Shown: positions 27,471 to 43,544 of the stretch, one piece after another
How positions within the stretch are numbered: the first letter of the stretch is position 1
Layout: every line of letters begins with the position of its first letter
Source: Anaeromyxobacter soli
GTDB taxonomy: Bacteria > Myxococcota > Myxococcia > Myxococcales > Anaeromyxobacteraceae
Direction of reading: 5' to 3'
Length of the DNA: 64,000 bases
Assembly (NCBI RefSeq): GCF_022808855.1
Contig: NZ_JAKZLF010000002.1
Span: 62,001 to 126,000 of the forward strand
Translations under genes and position numbers: made by a program
The notes under the pieces: model-generated
What the model was told of the DNA's origin: nothing
Database searches by the model: none
The model's input: the letters and a program-made list of their open reading frames with translations, nothing else

Positions 27471-27638
27471 GAGCCTCTCCGGGCCGCCTCGATCGTGCGA
27501 ACCTCGCTCATCGCGTCCCATGCCGCGCCCGAGCGCGCAGGGCTCGTCTCGCACGGGCCATCGGGGCGGTGCGCGCTCCTGGCCTTGCGCGCGAGGCGCG
27601 CGGGTCGAAGATCCGGCACCGACGGGGTGCGCCGGCAA

Positions 27639-30600
27639 ATGCCCGATAGGATCCTGGTCCTCAACGCGGGCTCGTCGTCCATCAAGTTCTCGCTCTTCCG
27701 CGGGCGCGATGGGGCGCTCGCGGCCGACGTCCGCGGCCAGGTCGACGGGCTCTCGCCCGAGGGCGCGCCGCGCTTCGTGGCGCGCGGGCCGGGCGGCGCG
27801 GTGCTCGCGGAGCGTCGCTGGCCGGCGAGCGCGTACCTCGACCACGCGGGCGCGGTGCGGGCGCTCCTCGACTTCGTCCGCGGGGCGGCGGAGGGCGGGG
27901 CGCTCGCGGGCGCGGCGCACCGGGTGGTGCACGGCGGCGCCGTCTTCGCCGGGCCGGAGCTCGTCGACGACGGCGTGCTCGCCCGGCTCCAGACCTTCGT
28001 CCCGCTCGCGCCACTCCACCAGCCGCACGGCCTCGCGCCCATCCGCATCCTGCGCGAGCTCGACCCGGCGCTCCCGCAGGTCGCCTGCTTCGACACCGCC
28101 TTCCACCGCACCCTGCCCCCCGTGGCCGAGCGCTTCGCGCTCCCCGAGGAGCTGCACGCGGCGGGCCTCCGGCGCTACGGCTTCCACGGTCTCTCGTACG
28201 AGTACGTAGCCTCGACGCTCGGGTCGCTCGATCCCGCCGCCGCGTCCGGGCGGACGGTCGTCATGCACCTCGGCAGCGGCGCCAGCATGTGCGCCCTGCT
28301 CGAGGGTCGCAGCGTCGCGACGACGATGGGGTTCAGCGTGCTCGACGGGCTCTGCATGGGGACCCGCTGTGGCGCGCTGGATCCGGGCGTCGTGCTCTGG
28401 CTCGCGAGCGAGCGGGGCCTGGATCCGCGCGCGATCGAGCGGCTCCTGTACGACGAGTCCGGGCTCCTCGGGGTGTCGGGCATCTCGAGCGATCTCCGGA
28501 CGCTGCTCGCCTCGCCCGATCCGCGCGCGCGGCTCGCCGTGGACCTCTTCGTCTACCGGATCGACCGCGAGCTGGGGTCCCTCGCGGCGGCGCTCGGCGG
28601 ACTCGACGCCGTCGTGTTCACGGCGGGTATCGGCGAGAACTCCGCCGAGATCCGGGCGCGGGTCTGCCGCGACGCCGCCTGGCTCGGCCTCGAGCTCGAT
28701 CCTGCGGCGAACGCCGCGGGGGGCCCGCGGATCTCCGGCGGCCGGAGCCGCGTGTCCGCCTGGGTGGTCCGCACCGACGAGGAGCTGATGATCGCGCGGC
28801 ACGCGCGCCGGATCCTGGCGCGCGCGGTCGCGGGGGAGGGACGAGCCGTGAGCGAGCAAGCGCCGAGGACCCCGGGAATCGCCGACCTGTCCGCGTTCGG
28901 GCCTGCGCGCTCCACCGTGCGCGGAGCGCCGCTCGCGCCCGAGGAGGTGGGCCGGATCGACGCCTTCTGGCGCGCCTGCAACTACCTCGCGCTCGGCATG
29001 ATCTTCCTGCAGGACAACCCGCTCCTGCGCGAGCCGCTCCGCCCCGAGCACGTGAAGAACCGGCTCCTCGGCCACTGGGGCGCGAGCCCGGCCCTGTCGT
29101 TCGTCTACGCGCACCTCGACCGGATCATCCGCGCGCGCAACCTGGACGTGCTCTTCCTGGCGGGGCCGGGGCACGGCGCGCCCGGCGTGCTCGGCCCGGT
29201 CTACCTCGAGGGCACCTACTCCGAGGTCTACCCGGACAAGAGCCTCGACGAGGAGGGGCTCCGGCGCCTCTTCAAGCAGTTCTCGTTCCCGGGCGGCGTC
29301 GGCAGCCACTGCACGCCCGAGCTGCCGGGCTCGATCCACGAGGGCGGAGAGCTCGGGTACGTGCTCTCCCACGCCTGCGGCGCCGCGTTCGACGACCCGG
29401 ACCTCATCGTCGCGGCCGTCGTGGGGGACGGCGAGGCCGAGACCGGCCCGCTCGCGACGTCGTGGCACGTGAACAAGTTCCTGAACCCGATCCGCGACGG
29501 CGCGGTCCTCCCGATCCTGTCCCTGAACGGCTACAAGATCGACAACCCCACCCTGCTCTCCCGCATCCCCTCGGACGAGCTCACGCAGCTCCTCGCCGGC
29601 TACGGCTGGACGCCCTTCCTCGTGGAGGGCTCCGAGCCCGAGTCGATGCACCAGGCGATGGCGGCCACCCTCGATCGCTGCGTGGAGCTCGTGCGCGGGG
29701 CGCAGGCCGAGGCACGCCGGACCGGCGTCGCCGCCCGGCCGCGCTGGCCGATGATCGTGCTGCGCGCGCCCAAGGGCTGGACGGCGCCGGCCGAGCTGGA
29801 CGGCCACGCGCTCGAGGGCTCCTGGCGCGCGCACCAGGTCCCCATCCCGGGCGTCAAGCGGGACCCCGCCCGGCTCGCGCTGCTCGAGCGCTGGCTCCGG
29901 AGCTACCGCCCCGAGGAGCTCTTCGACGCGGCGGGCGCGCCGGTCGCCGCCGTGCGCGAGGCGGCGCCCCGGGGGCCGCGCCGCATGGGCGCGAGCGCGC
30001 GCGCCAACGGCGGGCTCCTCAAGAAGGCGCTCCGGCTCCCCGACTTCCGGGACTACGCGGTGACGGTGGAGTCGCCCGGGGGCTCGCAGGCGGGGAACAC
30101 CGGTCCGCTCGGCGCCTTCCTGCGCGACGTGCTGCGCGCGAACGACCGGAACTTCCGGTTCTTCTCGCCCGACGAGACCACCTCGAACCGGCTCGACGCG
30201 GTGTACGAGGCGTCGGGGAAGCTCTGGCTCGGCGCGAGCCTCCCGGAGGACGCCGACGGCGGCCGGCTCGCCCCCGACGGCCGCGCCGTCGAGGTGCTCT
30301 CGGAGCACACGCTCGAGGGGATGCTGGAGGGCTACCTCCTGACCGGGCGCCACGGGCTCCTCGCGTCCTACGAGGCGTTCGTCCACATCATCGACTCGAT
30401 GTTCAACCAGCACGCGAAGTGGCTCTCCATCTGCAACCGCCTCTCGTGGCGCGAGGAGATCGCGTCGCTCAACCTGCTCGTCACCTCGACCGTCTGGCGC
30501 CAGGACCACAACGGCTTCACCCACCAGGACCCCGGGTTCCTGGACGTGGTGGTGAACAAGAGCGCCGAGGTGACCCGCATCTACCTCCCGCCCGACGCGA

Positions 30601-31304
30601 ACTGCCTGCTCTCGGTGGCGGACCACTGCCTCCGGAGCGAGAACTACGTGAACGTGATCGTCGCCGACAAGCAGGTCCACCTTCAGTACCTCTCGATGGA
30701 GGCGGCCGTCGCGCACTGCGCGAAGGGGATCGGCATCTGGGACTGGGCGAGCAGCGACGAGGGGCACGACCCCGACGTCGTCATGGCGTGCGCCGGCGAC
30801 GTCGCCACGCTGGAGGCGCTGGCCGCCACGGCCATGCTGCGGGAGGCGTTCCCCGACCTGCGCCTCCGCTTCGTGAACGTCGTGGACCTGTTCAAGCTCC
30901 AGCCGGAGACGGAGCACCCGCACGGCCTCTCCGACCGGGACTTCGACTCGCTCTTCACCGGGGACGCGCCGATCATCTTCAACTTCCACGGCTACCCCTG
31001 GCTCGTCCACCGGCTCGCCTACCGCCGCAGGAACCACCCGAACCTGCACGTGCGCGGCTACAAGGAGAAGGGGAGCATCAACACGCCCCTCGAGCTCGCG
31101 ATCGAGAACCAGATCGACCGGTTCAGCCTGGCCATGGACGTGATCGACCGCGTGCCGCGGCTGCTCGGCCCGGGCGCTCACGCCAAGGAGCGGTTCCGCA
31201 ACCGGCAGATCCAGTGCCGGCTGCACGCCCAGGAGTACGGCATCGACCCGCCCGACATCGTGGGCTGGCGGTGGCCGGCGGGGGACGCCGTTGGCCGCGA
31301 TTAG
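27639..31304 (+). CDS. Acetate kinase-phosphoketolase fusion protein
   Basis: 1221 aa in one open frame. Residues 1-403 are a complete acetate kinase: [23 protein letters not shown] (H94), [18 protein letters not shown] and the adenosine motif [10 protein letters not shown] (from residue 330). Residues 404-1221 are a complete phosphoketolase: GHWGAS (H479), [34 protein letters not shown] and [16 protein letters not shown] (TPP/Mg). The phosphoketolase would cut xylulose-5-P or fructose-6-P to acetyl-phosphate, and the kinase would make acetate and ATP from it. No stop separates them; an in-frame GTG with a ribosome site at the joint (28848) may also give free phosphoketolase. Known genomes usually have separate, adjacent genes. 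It overlaps the next gene by 14 bp. Confidence 0.88.
28834..28850 (+). promoter_or_regulatory. Internal ribosome site and GTG at the ackA/xfp joint
   Basis: GGGAGGG (28834-28840) lies 7 bases before an in-frame GTG (28848-28850) exactly where phosphoketolase homology would begin. It could allow a separate 818-aa phosphoketolase to be made as well as the fusion. Confidence 0.55.
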
Positions 31305-35173: not shown

Positions 35174-37900
35174 CTACAGGCAGGTCGCCGCGCAGGCCGC
35201 CGCCGGCGTCGCCGCCTTCAGCGCCTCGTCCGTCGCCTGCAGCACCTCGAACACGAACGTCGGGTTGTGGATGGCGTTCGAGCCGTCGTTCACGAGGCCG
35301 AGGTTCCACAGCGACCGCGAGAGGACGCCGTCCACGCCGGCGAGCGCGAACGCGCCCGTCGCGTCCGTGACCTTCCCGGCCGAGGCGCGGACCGTCTTGG
35401 TCGAGACCGTTCCCGACGGGAACGTGACGTCCACCGCCGCGACGAGGTTGAACACGATGGTCGTGCCCTCCACGTCGATGCTCGCGATGTTCGTGAGCGC
35501 GAGGACGAGCGGCGTGCCCTCAGGGGCTCCGTGGCCCGCGCCCGCGGGCGTGACGGTGAACCCGGCGGTGCCGGCCACCGCGGCCTCGAGGGTCGCGCTG
35601 AGCTGCGCGATGACCTGGGCGCGCGCGTTCGCGTACGCCGTCTCGATGGCCTCGCCGTTCACCTCTTCGCCGTGGCACTCCTTGCAGATCGACTTCGCCG
35701 CGTCGAAGCCCGCGTCGTTCGTGAAGCCGAACGTGTGGTTCGTGATCGTGTAGCGGAGGCCCTCGACGGCGGTCTTCATGTGGCAGCCGACGCAGGTCTC
35801 GGACACGGCGGCGTGGCCGGAGACCTTGTAGCCGTTGGCGTCGCCGATGAAGTACGCGTTCATGCCCATCAGCACCTCGGTCTGGGTCGGCGCGTGCGGC
35901 GTCGCGAAGCCCGTCATCGGGACGGCGTCGCCCCTGAGACCGCGGCGGCCGTTGTGGCAGGTCATGCAGAGCGCGCCGGTGCCGGCGCCGGAGACGGTGA
36001 AGCCGGCGGCGACGTAGACGGGGGCCTTGCCGTCGATGCGGACGGTGGTGGAGTGCGAGTCGTGGCACGCGGCGCAGGTCTGCGGCTCGACGTTCTCCTT
36101 CGTGGCGCCGCTGTCGACCGAGTCCTGCAGCGTGTTCGCGGCGTACTTCACGAAGCCCTGCGCCGAGTGGCAGCGCGCGCAGCTGGAGTTGGCGCGGGCC
36201 CCGGTCGACTCGCCGAAGGCGAGGCCGGTGTTCGCGTGGCCGGAGCGGCGCCAGAGCGCGACGCGGTCATGGTTCGTGGGACGGTCGTGGCACACGGCGC
36301 ACGCGGCGACGCCGTACTCGCCGACCGGCTTCGAGCCGCCGTTCGCGGCGTGGCGGCCGAGCGGACCGTGGCAGCTCTCGCACTGCATGCCGGCGTAGGC
36401 CTTGGCGTCCGCGGGGACGAGGTCCCAGGCGCCGTACTGCGGCTCCGTCGTGACGAGGTCGGGGGGAGTGCCGGTGAGGCCGGTGAGGTACTTGGAGAGG
36501 TCGGGGAAGGTCCAGCCCGCGGCCTTGGCGACGTCGTCGAAGCCGTCGTTCTGGAGCGCCGCGTTGTAGCCGGTCGTGTGGCACGCCACGCAGTTCTCGC
36601 CGTAGTGCGTGCCCTCGGCGCCCGTCATGCCGTACTCGAACGTCGTCATCGCGCCCGGCTCGGTCCAGAAGACGGTCGGGTTCGCCGTGGGCGCCGGGAT
36701 GGGCTTGCCGTCGGGGCCGGTCTTCCAGACCAGCTGGCCGTTCGCGTCGTACTCCATGTACTTGAAGAAGTGGTTCCCGTGCGCCGAGTTGCTCCACTTC
36801 TTGAACTTGAGCGCCATGGCCGCCTGCTTCTCGGCGGACATGAGGTACTCGTGGCAGCCACCGCAGCTCGGGTTCGAGCTGACGTAGTTCGAGACGGCGA
36901 CGCGGAGCCCGTCGAACCGGTAGACGCCCGGGGCGTCCGCGATGAACCAGGGGAACGCGGTGTCGGCGTCGTTCAGCACGGCGCTCGAGGCGATCGGCTT
37001 CTCGGTGAAGACGAGCGCGGCGGCGTTGCCGGGGATGCTGGCGATGACGAGGGTGCCCGTCGGGATGGAGCCGTTGGCCTGGGCGAGCGTCGCCGGGACG
37101 ACCGCGACGGTGACCTTGCCCTCGAAGCCCATCTGGTCGGTGACGACGACGTCGAAGTTGTACGTCATCTCCGTGAGCTGCCGGTTGCTGACGCCGAGGA
37201 ACTCGGGGCGGAAGGGCTTCCCTTCCTCGTCGAGCGACGGACCGAACCCGATCACCTTCTTGTCGGCGGCGACGATGTCGGCGAGGGCGCCCGTCGTGAA
37301 GGTCGGGGCCTCGACGTCATTCGCGGACAGCGTGACCGCCGTCGGGTTCGTGGTCCGCGGCGTCCACTTGTACGTGTAGGGCGGCGTGCCGCCGGTGACC
37401 GTGACGCCGAGGGTGACCTCGCGCTCGAAGCCGGCCGGGTTCGGCGGCTTCGCGGCCTTGAGGACGAGCGGGGAGATCGCGGTGAGCTCGCGGTTCAGGA
37501 TGTACTCCTTGCCCGCGGCGATCGAGATGTTCGGCACCTCGAGCGTCTTGAAGCCGTTGCCCGAGAAGACGATGGTGTAGACGCCGATGGCGCAGCCCGA
37601 GCCGAGCTCGTACTCGCCGTTCGCGTCGGACGTGGCGGTCCCGCACCAGTCCGGAATGCTCGTCACCGTGACGTTCGTCGCCGGATACTCCTTCCCCGCG
37701 ACCTTGAACGTCAGCTTGCCCATCACCCCACCCGTCGACCTGCCGTCCGCGCCGTCCTGGCCGCTCGGCCCCACTGGTCCCGCCGCGCCGTCCTGGCCGT
37801 TCAGCCCGTCCCTGCCGTCCTTGCCGTTCGAGCCACCGGAGCAGCCGGCGAGCGCGAGGACCATCACCAGCGAGAGCACGCGATGCTTCGTCGCATCCAT
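35174..37900 (-). CDS. Nine-heme c-type cytochrome lipoprotein with collagen-like segment
   Basis: 908 aa. Lipobox LALAGC puts a lipid on C20. Residues 26-55 are ten Gly-X-Y triplets (GKDGRDGLNGQDG and on), a collagen-like stretch. Beta-sandwich domains fill residues about 58-330, including a carboxypeptidase-regulatory-like fold (TVTSIPDWCGTATSDANG). Nine CxxCH heme sites follow between residues 346 and 743 (CGGCH, CVACH, CESCH, CAVCH, CARCH, CAACH, CMTCH, CVGCH, CKECH). The C-terminal 165 residues are again non-heme. Probably an outer-membrane or surface electron carrier for extracellular or metal respiration. It stands alone, without porin or partner cytochrome genes. A GGGGGGAA ribosome site precedes the ATG. 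Confidence 0.9.
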   Translation of the reverse strand: MDATKHRVLSLVMVLALAGCSGGSNGKDGRDGLNGQDGAAGPVGPSGQDGADGRSTGGVMGKLTFKVAGKEYPATNVTVTSIPDWCGTATSDANGEYELGSGCAIGVYTIVFSGNGFKTLEVPNISIAAGKEYILNRELTAISPLVLKAAKPPNPAGFEREVTLGVTVTGGTPPYTYKWTPRTTNPTAVTLSANDVEAPTFTTGALADIVAADKKVIGFGPSLDEEGKPFRPEFLGVSNRQLTEMTYNFDVVVTDQMGFEGKVTVAVVPATLAQANGSIPTGTLVIASIPGNAAALVFTEKPIASSAVLNDADTAFPWFIADAPGVYRFDGLRVAVSNYVSSNPSCGGCHEYLMSAEKQAAMALKFKKWSNSAHGNHFFKYMEYDANGQLVWKTGPDGKPIPAPTANPTVFWTEPGAMTTFEYGMTGAEGTHYGENCVACHTTGYNAALQNDGFDDVAKAAGWTFPDLSKYLTGLTGTPPDLVTTEPQYGAWDLVPADAKAYAGMQCESCHGPLGRHAANGGSKPVGEYGVAACAVCHDRPTNHDRVALWRRSGHANTGLAFGESTGARANSSCARCHSAQGFVKYAANTLQDSVDSGATKENVEPQTCAACHDSHSTTVRIDGKAPVYVAAGFTVSGAGTGALCMTCHNGRRGLRGDAVPMTGFATPHAPTQTEVLMGMNAYFIGDANGYKVSGHAAVSETCVGCHMKTAVEGLRYTITNHTFGFTNDAGFDAAKSICKECHGEEVNGEAIETAYANARAQVIAQLSATLEAAVAGTAGFTVTPAGAGHGAPEGTPLVLALTNIASIDVEGTTIVFNLVAAVDVTFPSGTVSTKTVRASAGKVTDATGAFALAGVDGVLSRSLWNLGLVNDGSNAIHNPTFVFEVLQATDEALKAATPAAACAATCL

Positions 37901-37947
37901 GAAGGGATTCCCCCCAATTACTTAACGTGAAGAGTCGATTCCAGAGA

Positions 37948-42341: not shown

Positions 42342-43544
42342 ATGAAGAGAGCACGTCAGAAGACGTCGCGGCGCCCCGGCGGCGTCCCGCCCGACCGTCG
42401 TTCGCCCGCCAGGCCGCTCGTGGCGGCGCTCGGGCTCGCCCTGCTGGGCGTGGCCCTGGCTGCCCTCCTCGCGCGCCTGCACGCTCGCGCGCACGCGGGG
42501 TACTCCAGCTTCTGCGCCATCAACGACGTCGTGAACTGCGATCGCGTGGCGTTGAGCCGGTTCTCCGTGTTCCTCGGGCTGCCCGTCGCGGCCTGGGGCG
42601 TCCTGGGCTACGGCCTCGCCGCCGGGCTCGCCGCTCGGGCGCTCGTCCACGCGCGGCGCGGTCGCCCCCTCGCCCGGGGGCTCCTGTTCGGCGTGGCGGC
42701 GACCGCGGTCGCGGCGTCGATCGCGCTCGCGATCGTGAGCGAGGCCGCCATCGGCGCGTGGTGCCTGCTCTGCGTGGCCTCGTGGCTCACGGCCGTCGCG
42801 CTCCTCGCGGCGGCCTGGCGCGCCTGCCCGGCCGGCCCCGCCGCCGCGATCGCGGCCGACCTCGCCGCGCTCCGCGCGCGCCCGGCGAGGTCCGCGGCGC
42901 TCGCGGTCGTGCTCCTCGCCGCCGTCGCGGGCGCGCGGGCCGCATACCCGCGCTACGCGTCCGTGGCGCCCGCGCCTCCCGCCGCGCGCGCCGGCGCGCC
43001 GGGGACCCCGACCCCGAGCCCGGCGGCGGCTCCGGCCCCCGGCGACCGCGTCATCGTCGAGTTCAGCGACTACGAGTGCCCGTTCTGCGCGCGCGCCCAC
43101 GAGCAGCTCGCGCTCCTCCGCGCGGCGAGGCCGGACCTGGAGATCGTCCGCCGGCACTTCCCCCTCGACGCCGCGTGCAACCCCGCCCTGAAGCGCTCCA
43201 TCCATCCGTCGGCGTGCTCCCTCGCGCGCGCCGCGATCTGCGCCGAGGCGCGGGGCCGCTTCGAGCAGATGGACGACGCGCTGTTCAAGAACCAGCAGGA
43301 CAAGGCGCCGGTGGCGACCCTCGCGGCTCGCCTCGGGCTCGACCTCCCCGCGTTCGAGGCGTGCCTCGTGTCGCCCGCGACGGAGGCCCGGCTCTCCCGC
43401 GACGTCGCGGACGCGATGCGCGCCGGCGTGCGCGCGACGCCGTCGTACGTCGTGGGCGGCAAGGTCTACGCGGGCGAGCTCCCGCGGGAGCTCTGGAGCG
43501 CGCCCCCGGCCGCCCAGCCTCGCGCCCGCGCCGCCGAGCGCTGA
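42342..43544 (+). CDS. VKOR-DsbA fusion disulfide-forming protein
   Basis: 400 aa. The N-terminal half is an integral membrane vitamin-K-epoxide-reductase-like domain with loop cysteines C58 and C66 and the quinone-side pair C141/C144 (WCLLC). The C-terminal half is a periplasmic thioredoxin/DsbA-like domain with C246-P-F-C249 (DYECPFCARAH) and the cis-Pro loop ATPSYVV. It would oxidise thiols in exported proteins and pass the electrons to quinone, replacing DsbA plus DsbB. A Pro/Ala linker joins the halves (about residues 208-233). Fits an organism with many multiheme cytochromes. Confidence 0.92.
   Translation: MKRARQKTSRRPGGVPPDRRSPARPLVAALGLALLGVALAALLARLHARAHAGYSSFCAINDVVNCDRVALSRFSVFLGLPVAAWGVLGYGLAAGLAARALVHARRGRPLARGLLFGVAATAVAASIALAIVSEAAIGAWCLLCVASWLTAVALLAAAWRACPAGPAAAIAADLAALRARPARSAALAVVLLAAVAGARAAYPRYASVAPAPPAARAGAPGTPTPSPAAAPAPGDRVIVEFSDYECPFCARAHEQLALLRAARPDLEIVRRHFPLDAACNPALKRSIHPSACSLARAAICAEARGRFEQMDDALFKNQQDKAPVATLAARLGLDLPAFEACLVSPATEARLSRDVADAMRAGVRATPSYVVGGKVYAGELPRELWSAPPAAQPRARAAER

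Follow-up and report, generated by a model that had tools for sequence, protein, structure and literature searches.

A nonaheme lipoprotein of Anaeromyxobacter soli with a collagen-like tether and a predicted OcwA-like heme head

The gene and its neighbourhood

The window, the whole 64-kb stretch of the Anaeromyxobacter soli genome analysed here (an assembly of 80 contigs), carries on its minus strand a gene for a nonaheme lipoprotein of 908 amino acids, which starts with ATG (35174..37900, minus). A G-rich, Shine-Dalgarno-like stretch, GGGGGG, lies 10 nt 5' of the ATG (37910..37915, minus), and the G+C content by codon position is 0.61/0.52/0.98, with third positions at 97.7%. The upstream G-rich stretch and the strong codon-position bias together indicate that 35174..37900 is a real gene. 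Compared with a close orthologue (L002), its codons differ at 109 synonymous and 98 non-synonymous positions. The nearest named record is from Anaeromyxobacter terrae, with 89% identity. A relative is present in 12 of 24 genomes of Anaeromyxobacteraceae and is missing from several genomes of the same genus, so the gene is an accessory one. Relatives extend to other Myxococcota, a groundwater Deltaproteobacteria assembly (L022) holds two of them close together, and none of the relatives was found on a plasmid.

The genes flanking the nonaheme gene encode a DJ-1/PfpI protein and a flavin amine oxidase, and the 64-kb window has no second multiheme reading frame, which agrees with a preliminary description of this DNA that saw no partner porin or cytochrome next to the gene. 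An adjacent electron-transfer operon was considered and rejected, because the flanking genes are unrelated and differ between relatives. Exceptions to these changing neighbours are found in two distant genomes, where tethered cytochromes stand in tandem together with a histidine kinase. A membrane sensor histidine kinase is encoded directly after tethered cytochrome genes in two related genomes (L176:15161-16126, L177:7483-8379).

Two other genes of the window deserve mention in their own right. A VKOR domain fused to a DsbA-like thioredoxin is encoded at 42342-43541, some 4.4 kb away from the cytochrome gene, and could have a role in envelope disulfide handling. At 27495-31301, an acetate kinase (residues 53-435) and a full phosphoketolase (residues 481-1260) are encoded in a single reading frame, and the Pfam scores of both are very strong. 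This is possibly a natural fusion, making ATP from the acetyl phosphate of phosphoketolase.

Architecture of the protein

All segments of the protein are encoded on the minus strand. It opens with a lipoprotein signal peptide (37841..37900), in which a hydrophobic signal is followed by the lipobox LAGC, ending at the lipidated Cys20 that had already been proposed as the anchor. Cys20 is invariant in the family alignment, and the residue at +2 is Ser21 and not Asp, as in outer-membrane lipoproteins. Directly behind the anchor, residues 23-55 (37736..37834) form a collagen-like tether, an uninterrupted run of 11 Gly-X-Y triplets that is seen in the sequence and in the alignment; the preliminary description had recognized the run and counted ten. 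Across 5000 shuffled copies of the 908-residue protein, the longest Gly-x-x run is 6 and the largest number of CxxCH motifs is 1.

Beta-sandwich domains follow the tether, as had also been claimed. Residues 68-138 (37487..37699) match a carboxypeptidase-regulatory-like domain (PF13620, E 3e-8), with modelled strands at a pLDDT of about 67-85, and residues 145-335 (36896..37468) probably hold further Ig/PKD-like domains, as judged from partial strands of lower confidence and from PKD/Ig Pfam matches in some relatives. Taken as a whole, strands are predicted with moderate confidence over residues 56-180 and in patches to residue 337. The nine-heme domain, which the family profile and the alignment describe as OcwA/NrfA-like, spans residues 346-743 (35672..36865), and its CxxCH motifs at residues 346, 437, 507, 534, 574, 609, 645, 703, and 739 confirm the number first reported. 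The alignment and the model end the protein in helices with an inserted beta segment (35177..35656), bearing a conserved WN and HNP.F, with HNP invariant in the family and H878 aligned with H479 of OcwA.

The structure model was made for a single chain, from five sequences and without hemes. It leaves the tether disordered and gives the heme head a mean pLDDT of 42, too low to judge NrfA-like packing or a three-helix C-terminus, and the support for the fold of the head comes from sequence profiles. A fold search gave nothing but Ig-like strings that superposed poorly, and it was not used for the heme head.

The heme head and its relationship to OcwA

A family profile was built from 23 relatives and searched against all PDB sequences. 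The top match is OcwA (6i5b), with an E value of 3e-29 and 105 bits. The next PDB chain is NrfA at 33 bits, followed by the octaheme nitrite reductase and cytochrome c554, and chains of MtrC or OmcA are absent from the best 60 PDB matches. Since CxxCH-rich proteins match one another by motif, OcwA (427 residues recovered from the alignment) was scored beside 300 shuffles that preserve its CxxCH motifs. OcwA reaches 112.6 bits against at most 28.7 in the shuffles, and with CxxCH masked in the model it still reaches 47.6 bits against at most 3.0. All nine CxxCH motifs align one to one with those of OcwA and in the same order. Nearly every conserved His outside the motifs is matched as well, with the family-conserved H374, H517, H544, H555, H616, H669, H722, and H878 aligned with histidines of OcwA. 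Judged by profile and alignment, the heme head is homologous to OcwA beyond its heme motifs and is not MtrC-like.

OcwA is a cell-surface terminal reductase of Thermincola, a nonaheme cytochrome of solved structure that reduces iron oxides, flavins, and N-oxides; six of its hemes are bis-His, one is His-Met, and two are open with His-His pockets (PMC6703420). The A. soli protein departs from this pattern in places. The invariant H696 aligns with Met373 of OcwA, the His-His pocket of heme 5 (H351/352) is replaced by A666/T667, and in the pocket of heme 2 the second His alone is kept (H544). Neither His-His pocket is complete, so we call the protein an OcwA relative and not an OcwA. Its reactive heme sites may differ from those of OcwA, and seven six-coordinate hemes with one or two open, reactive hemes are predicted. 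OcwA has previously been placed among the nonahemes of Gram-negative bacteria (PMC7829351), and this type of head is therefore not new.

The same profile search gives some room to another function, in which the protein, at the surface or in the periplasm, reduces soluble oxyanions such as nitrite, hydroxylamine, or sulfite and is closer to NrfA and the octaheme enzymes than to a mineral reductase. NrfA, octaheme nitrite reductase, and cytochrome c554 are the matches next to OcwA, and OcwA itself is reported to reduce nitrite and hydroxylamine. However, the CxxCK motif of the NrfA active site is absent, and a soluble substrate gives little reason for a lipid anchor with a long spacer, which makes such a reductase unlikely.

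A Pfam match, taken at face value, would instead make the protein a degenerate OmcA/MtrC member that has lost one heme. PF22113, the MtrC/MtrF domain, matches at 35627-36895 above its cut-off; however, three shuffles that keep the CxxCH letters alone also pass, with 38-46 bits against a cut-off of 30. PF22113 matches alone overcall MtrC-like proteins. The OmcA/MtrC model TIGR03507 gives 19.9 bits against a curated cut-off of 209.3, when a true tethered decaheme scores 322.9, and the protein has nine hemes instead of ten. With the PDB profile preferring OcwA as well, OmcA/MtrC membership was rejected, and an origin by heme loss from that family is very improbable.

Conservation and physical nature of the tether

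The alignment (A1) contains 12 relatives with a complete N-terminus that a homology search had found, at 29-89% identity; all 12 keep the lipid Cys and the Gly-X-Y run, which is interrupted in one of them. Further relatives with a complete N-terminus outside this alignment have the lipobox and Gly-X-Y too. Among the A. soli protein and its two close orthologues, Gly is changed in 0 of 33 comparisons and the X and Y residues in 22 of 66, while the Gly codons differ synonymously in 20 of the 33 comparisons. A larger set, which includes tethers found by pattern and is biased towards intact Gly, has 0 of 169 changes at Gly against 52 of 338 at X/Y. Tether lengths differ between orthologues by whole triplets. 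Across 38 tethers of multiheme proteins, most of them found by the Gly-X-Y pattern, Pro occurs more at X than at Y (118 versus 51), and the Pfam collagen model PF01391 is matched by 15 of 23 relatives and not by the A. soli protein itself.

The spacer had been described at first as flexible and collagen-like. The collagen-like module holds, being kept in the relatives and recurring on other multiheme lipoproteins, but the word flexible is open to doubt because Gly stays in register, a pattern that suits a sequence able to form a triple helix no less than it suits a floppy linker. Two ways of reading the pattern have to be weighed, and both concern the tether alone and are compatible with our main reading of the protein.

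In one, Gly-X-Y folds as a collagen triple helix, giving a trimeric cytochrome with a stiff stalk of about 9-10 nm and 27 hemes at its tip. Gly is kept every third residue despite codon drift as X and Y vary, and the whole-triplet length changes, the preference of Pro for X, and the Pfam collagen matches of the relatives point the same way. There is also a precedent in Bucl8 of Burkholderia, a lipid-anchored collagen-like outer-membrane protein that is triple-helical in vitro (PMC7682875). Yet 11 triplets with few prolines and no hydroxyproline are short for a stable helix, and a short version of the tether occurs on MtrC of Shewanella, a protein present once per MtrCAB (PMC7198977). Whole-triplet changes could also arise from 9-bp DNA repeats, and the Gly conservation is partly built in, as most of the compared tethers were found by the Gly-X-Y pattern. 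A trimeric stalk appears improbable.

The other reading, to which we give slightly less than even odds, treats the tether as a flexible or export-related lipoprotein linker in which the Gly-X-Y pattern has no structural role. It draws on the short Gly-x-x runs after the lipid Cys in MtrC, MtrF, OmcA, and UndA, on the disorder of the tether in the single-chain model, and on a decaheme lipoprotein of the A. soli genome (L045:4602-7076), in which a poly-Gly run takes the position that Gly-X-Y has in others behind the lipobox. Against it stands the strictness of the register, which deeply diverged tethers keep for 11 to more than 30 triplets.

The tether on other cytochromes

A DNA pattern of a lipobox followed by eight Gly-X-Y positions matches in 125 of 189 Myxococcota genomes, although the reversed control pattern also matches, so that chance matches occur. 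From the match list, Gly-X-Y lipoproteins were picked by hand and not at random, from related species that are not independent; 34 of 46 in Anaeromyxobacteraceae are multiheme (8-10 CxxCH), against 10 of 35 in the rest of the phylum (Fisher P 1e-4). The multiheme ones include true OmcA/MtrC decahemes. In one genome (G014) a tethered decaheme adjoins a nonaheme relative; it scores 322.9 bits, above the OmcA/MtrC cut-off. A tethered decaheme of the A. soli genome, carrying GEKGANGVNGTDGTDGTNGQDG, scores 136.7 bits over most of its length, below the cut-off. As true OmcA/MtrC decahemes are also tethered, two different heme families share the lipobox and Gly-X-Y module. Shewanella MtrC and MtrF, as given in the PDB, have GGSDG... 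behind the lipid Cys, and the constructs of OmcA and UndA lack that Cys and begin with GGSDGKDGEDGKPG; the query sequences were confirmed by their PDB match.

These occurrences suggest that lipid Cys plus Gly-X-Y is a reusable mount that fixes electron-delivering proteins to the cell exterior. A bolder form of the idea, which we regard as less probable still than the trimeric stalk of a single cytochrome, is that the tethers are a shared mounting module of true triple-helix stalks, on which unrelated heads, OcwA-type nonahemes and MtrC-type decahemes, would stand as trimeric clusters of about 27-30 hemes off the cell and independent of a co-encoded porin.

The open-licence literature yielded no paper pairing 'multiheme cytochrome' with 'collagen-like' or 'Gly-X-Y' with 'decaheme', and no remark on Gly-X-Y after the lipid Cys of these cytochromes; the sole paper there in which collagen-like, c-type cytochrome, and lipoprotein come together reports a genome and uses each term once. 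Myxococcota commonly encode long collagen-like lipoproteins, one of which (L197, G050:C13:54170-59600) has 93 unbroken Gly-X-Y triplets and no hemes. The A. soli genome also has very large multiheme frames (L049, G000:C1:115000-130000), including one of 2049 codons with 61 C-x(2-4)-CH motifs.

Proposed function and significance

We propose, with a probability of roughly 60%, that the protein is an outer-membrane lipoprotein of the OcwA/NrfA superfamily that acts at the cell surface as a terminal electron-transfer cytochrome, its head held out by the tether and the beta domains. Based on homology to OcwA, a role in extracellular electron transfer is likely. The lipid on Cys20 would anchor the protein, and Ser at +2 would direct its sorting to the outer membrane. 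Type II secretion is a known route for Shewanella surface cytochromes; a type II secretin is encoded in the A. soli genome, and this machinery could carry the protein to the surface. Together, the 11 triplets and two or three beta-sandwich domains would keep the heme head at least about 10 nm away from the lipid layer. Electrons would be supplied by a porin-cytochrome conduit encoded elsewhere, and the head might pass them from respiration to Fe(III) or Mn oxides, humics, or small oxyanions.

In the 80 contigs of the A. soli genome, neither an MtrB/PioB porin nor a pcc conduit was found. An MtrA/DmsE-like candidate on contig 1 was rejected as part of a conduit, having no recognizable porin beside it. 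Anaeromyxobacter is an abundant metal reducer in soil. Its described pcc clusters encode a porin and a periplasmic cytochrome of 12-14 hemes without an outer-membrane cytochrome gene (PMC4245776). With such clusters, an unlinked partner like the nonaheme lipoprotein would make sense, and unlinked, lipid-anchored, collagen-tethered cytochromes could fill this gap at the outer membrane. One tether is shared by two heme families, and Gram-negative lipoproteins are seen to carry OcwA-like nonaheme heads. Should the tethers prove to be triple helices, the assumed oligomeric state of surface cytochromes would need revisiting.

Comparison with known systems

The nonaheme lipoprotein resembles OcwA in the order of its nine hemes, in the matching conserved His outside the motifs, in the C-terminal HN helix, and in its proposed role as a surface terminal reductase. 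It differs by adding a lipid anchor, a collagen-like tether, and several beta domains, a stalk that OcwA does not have, as well as by the His at the M373 position, the absent His-His pocket of heme 5, and the beta insertion in the C-terminal helices. With OmcA, MtrC, MtrF, and UndA of Shewanella it shares the plan of a lipid-anchored multiheme protein with Gly-x-x directly after the lipid Cys and beta domains behind it. However, those proteins have ten hemes in a staggered cross and a shorter tether (about 4-6 triplets against 11), and are encoded with MtrAB. The tethered OmcA/MtrC decahemes of Anaeromyxobacteraceae (e.g., L047 and L176) have the same module in the same organisms, in one genome as a tandem neighbour, but carry a heme head of another family (TIGR03507). 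Bucl8 and Scl likewise present uninterrupted Gly-X-Y in a surface protein, lipid-anchored in the outer membrane in the case of Bucl8, but they are adhesins or efflux parts and not cytochromes.
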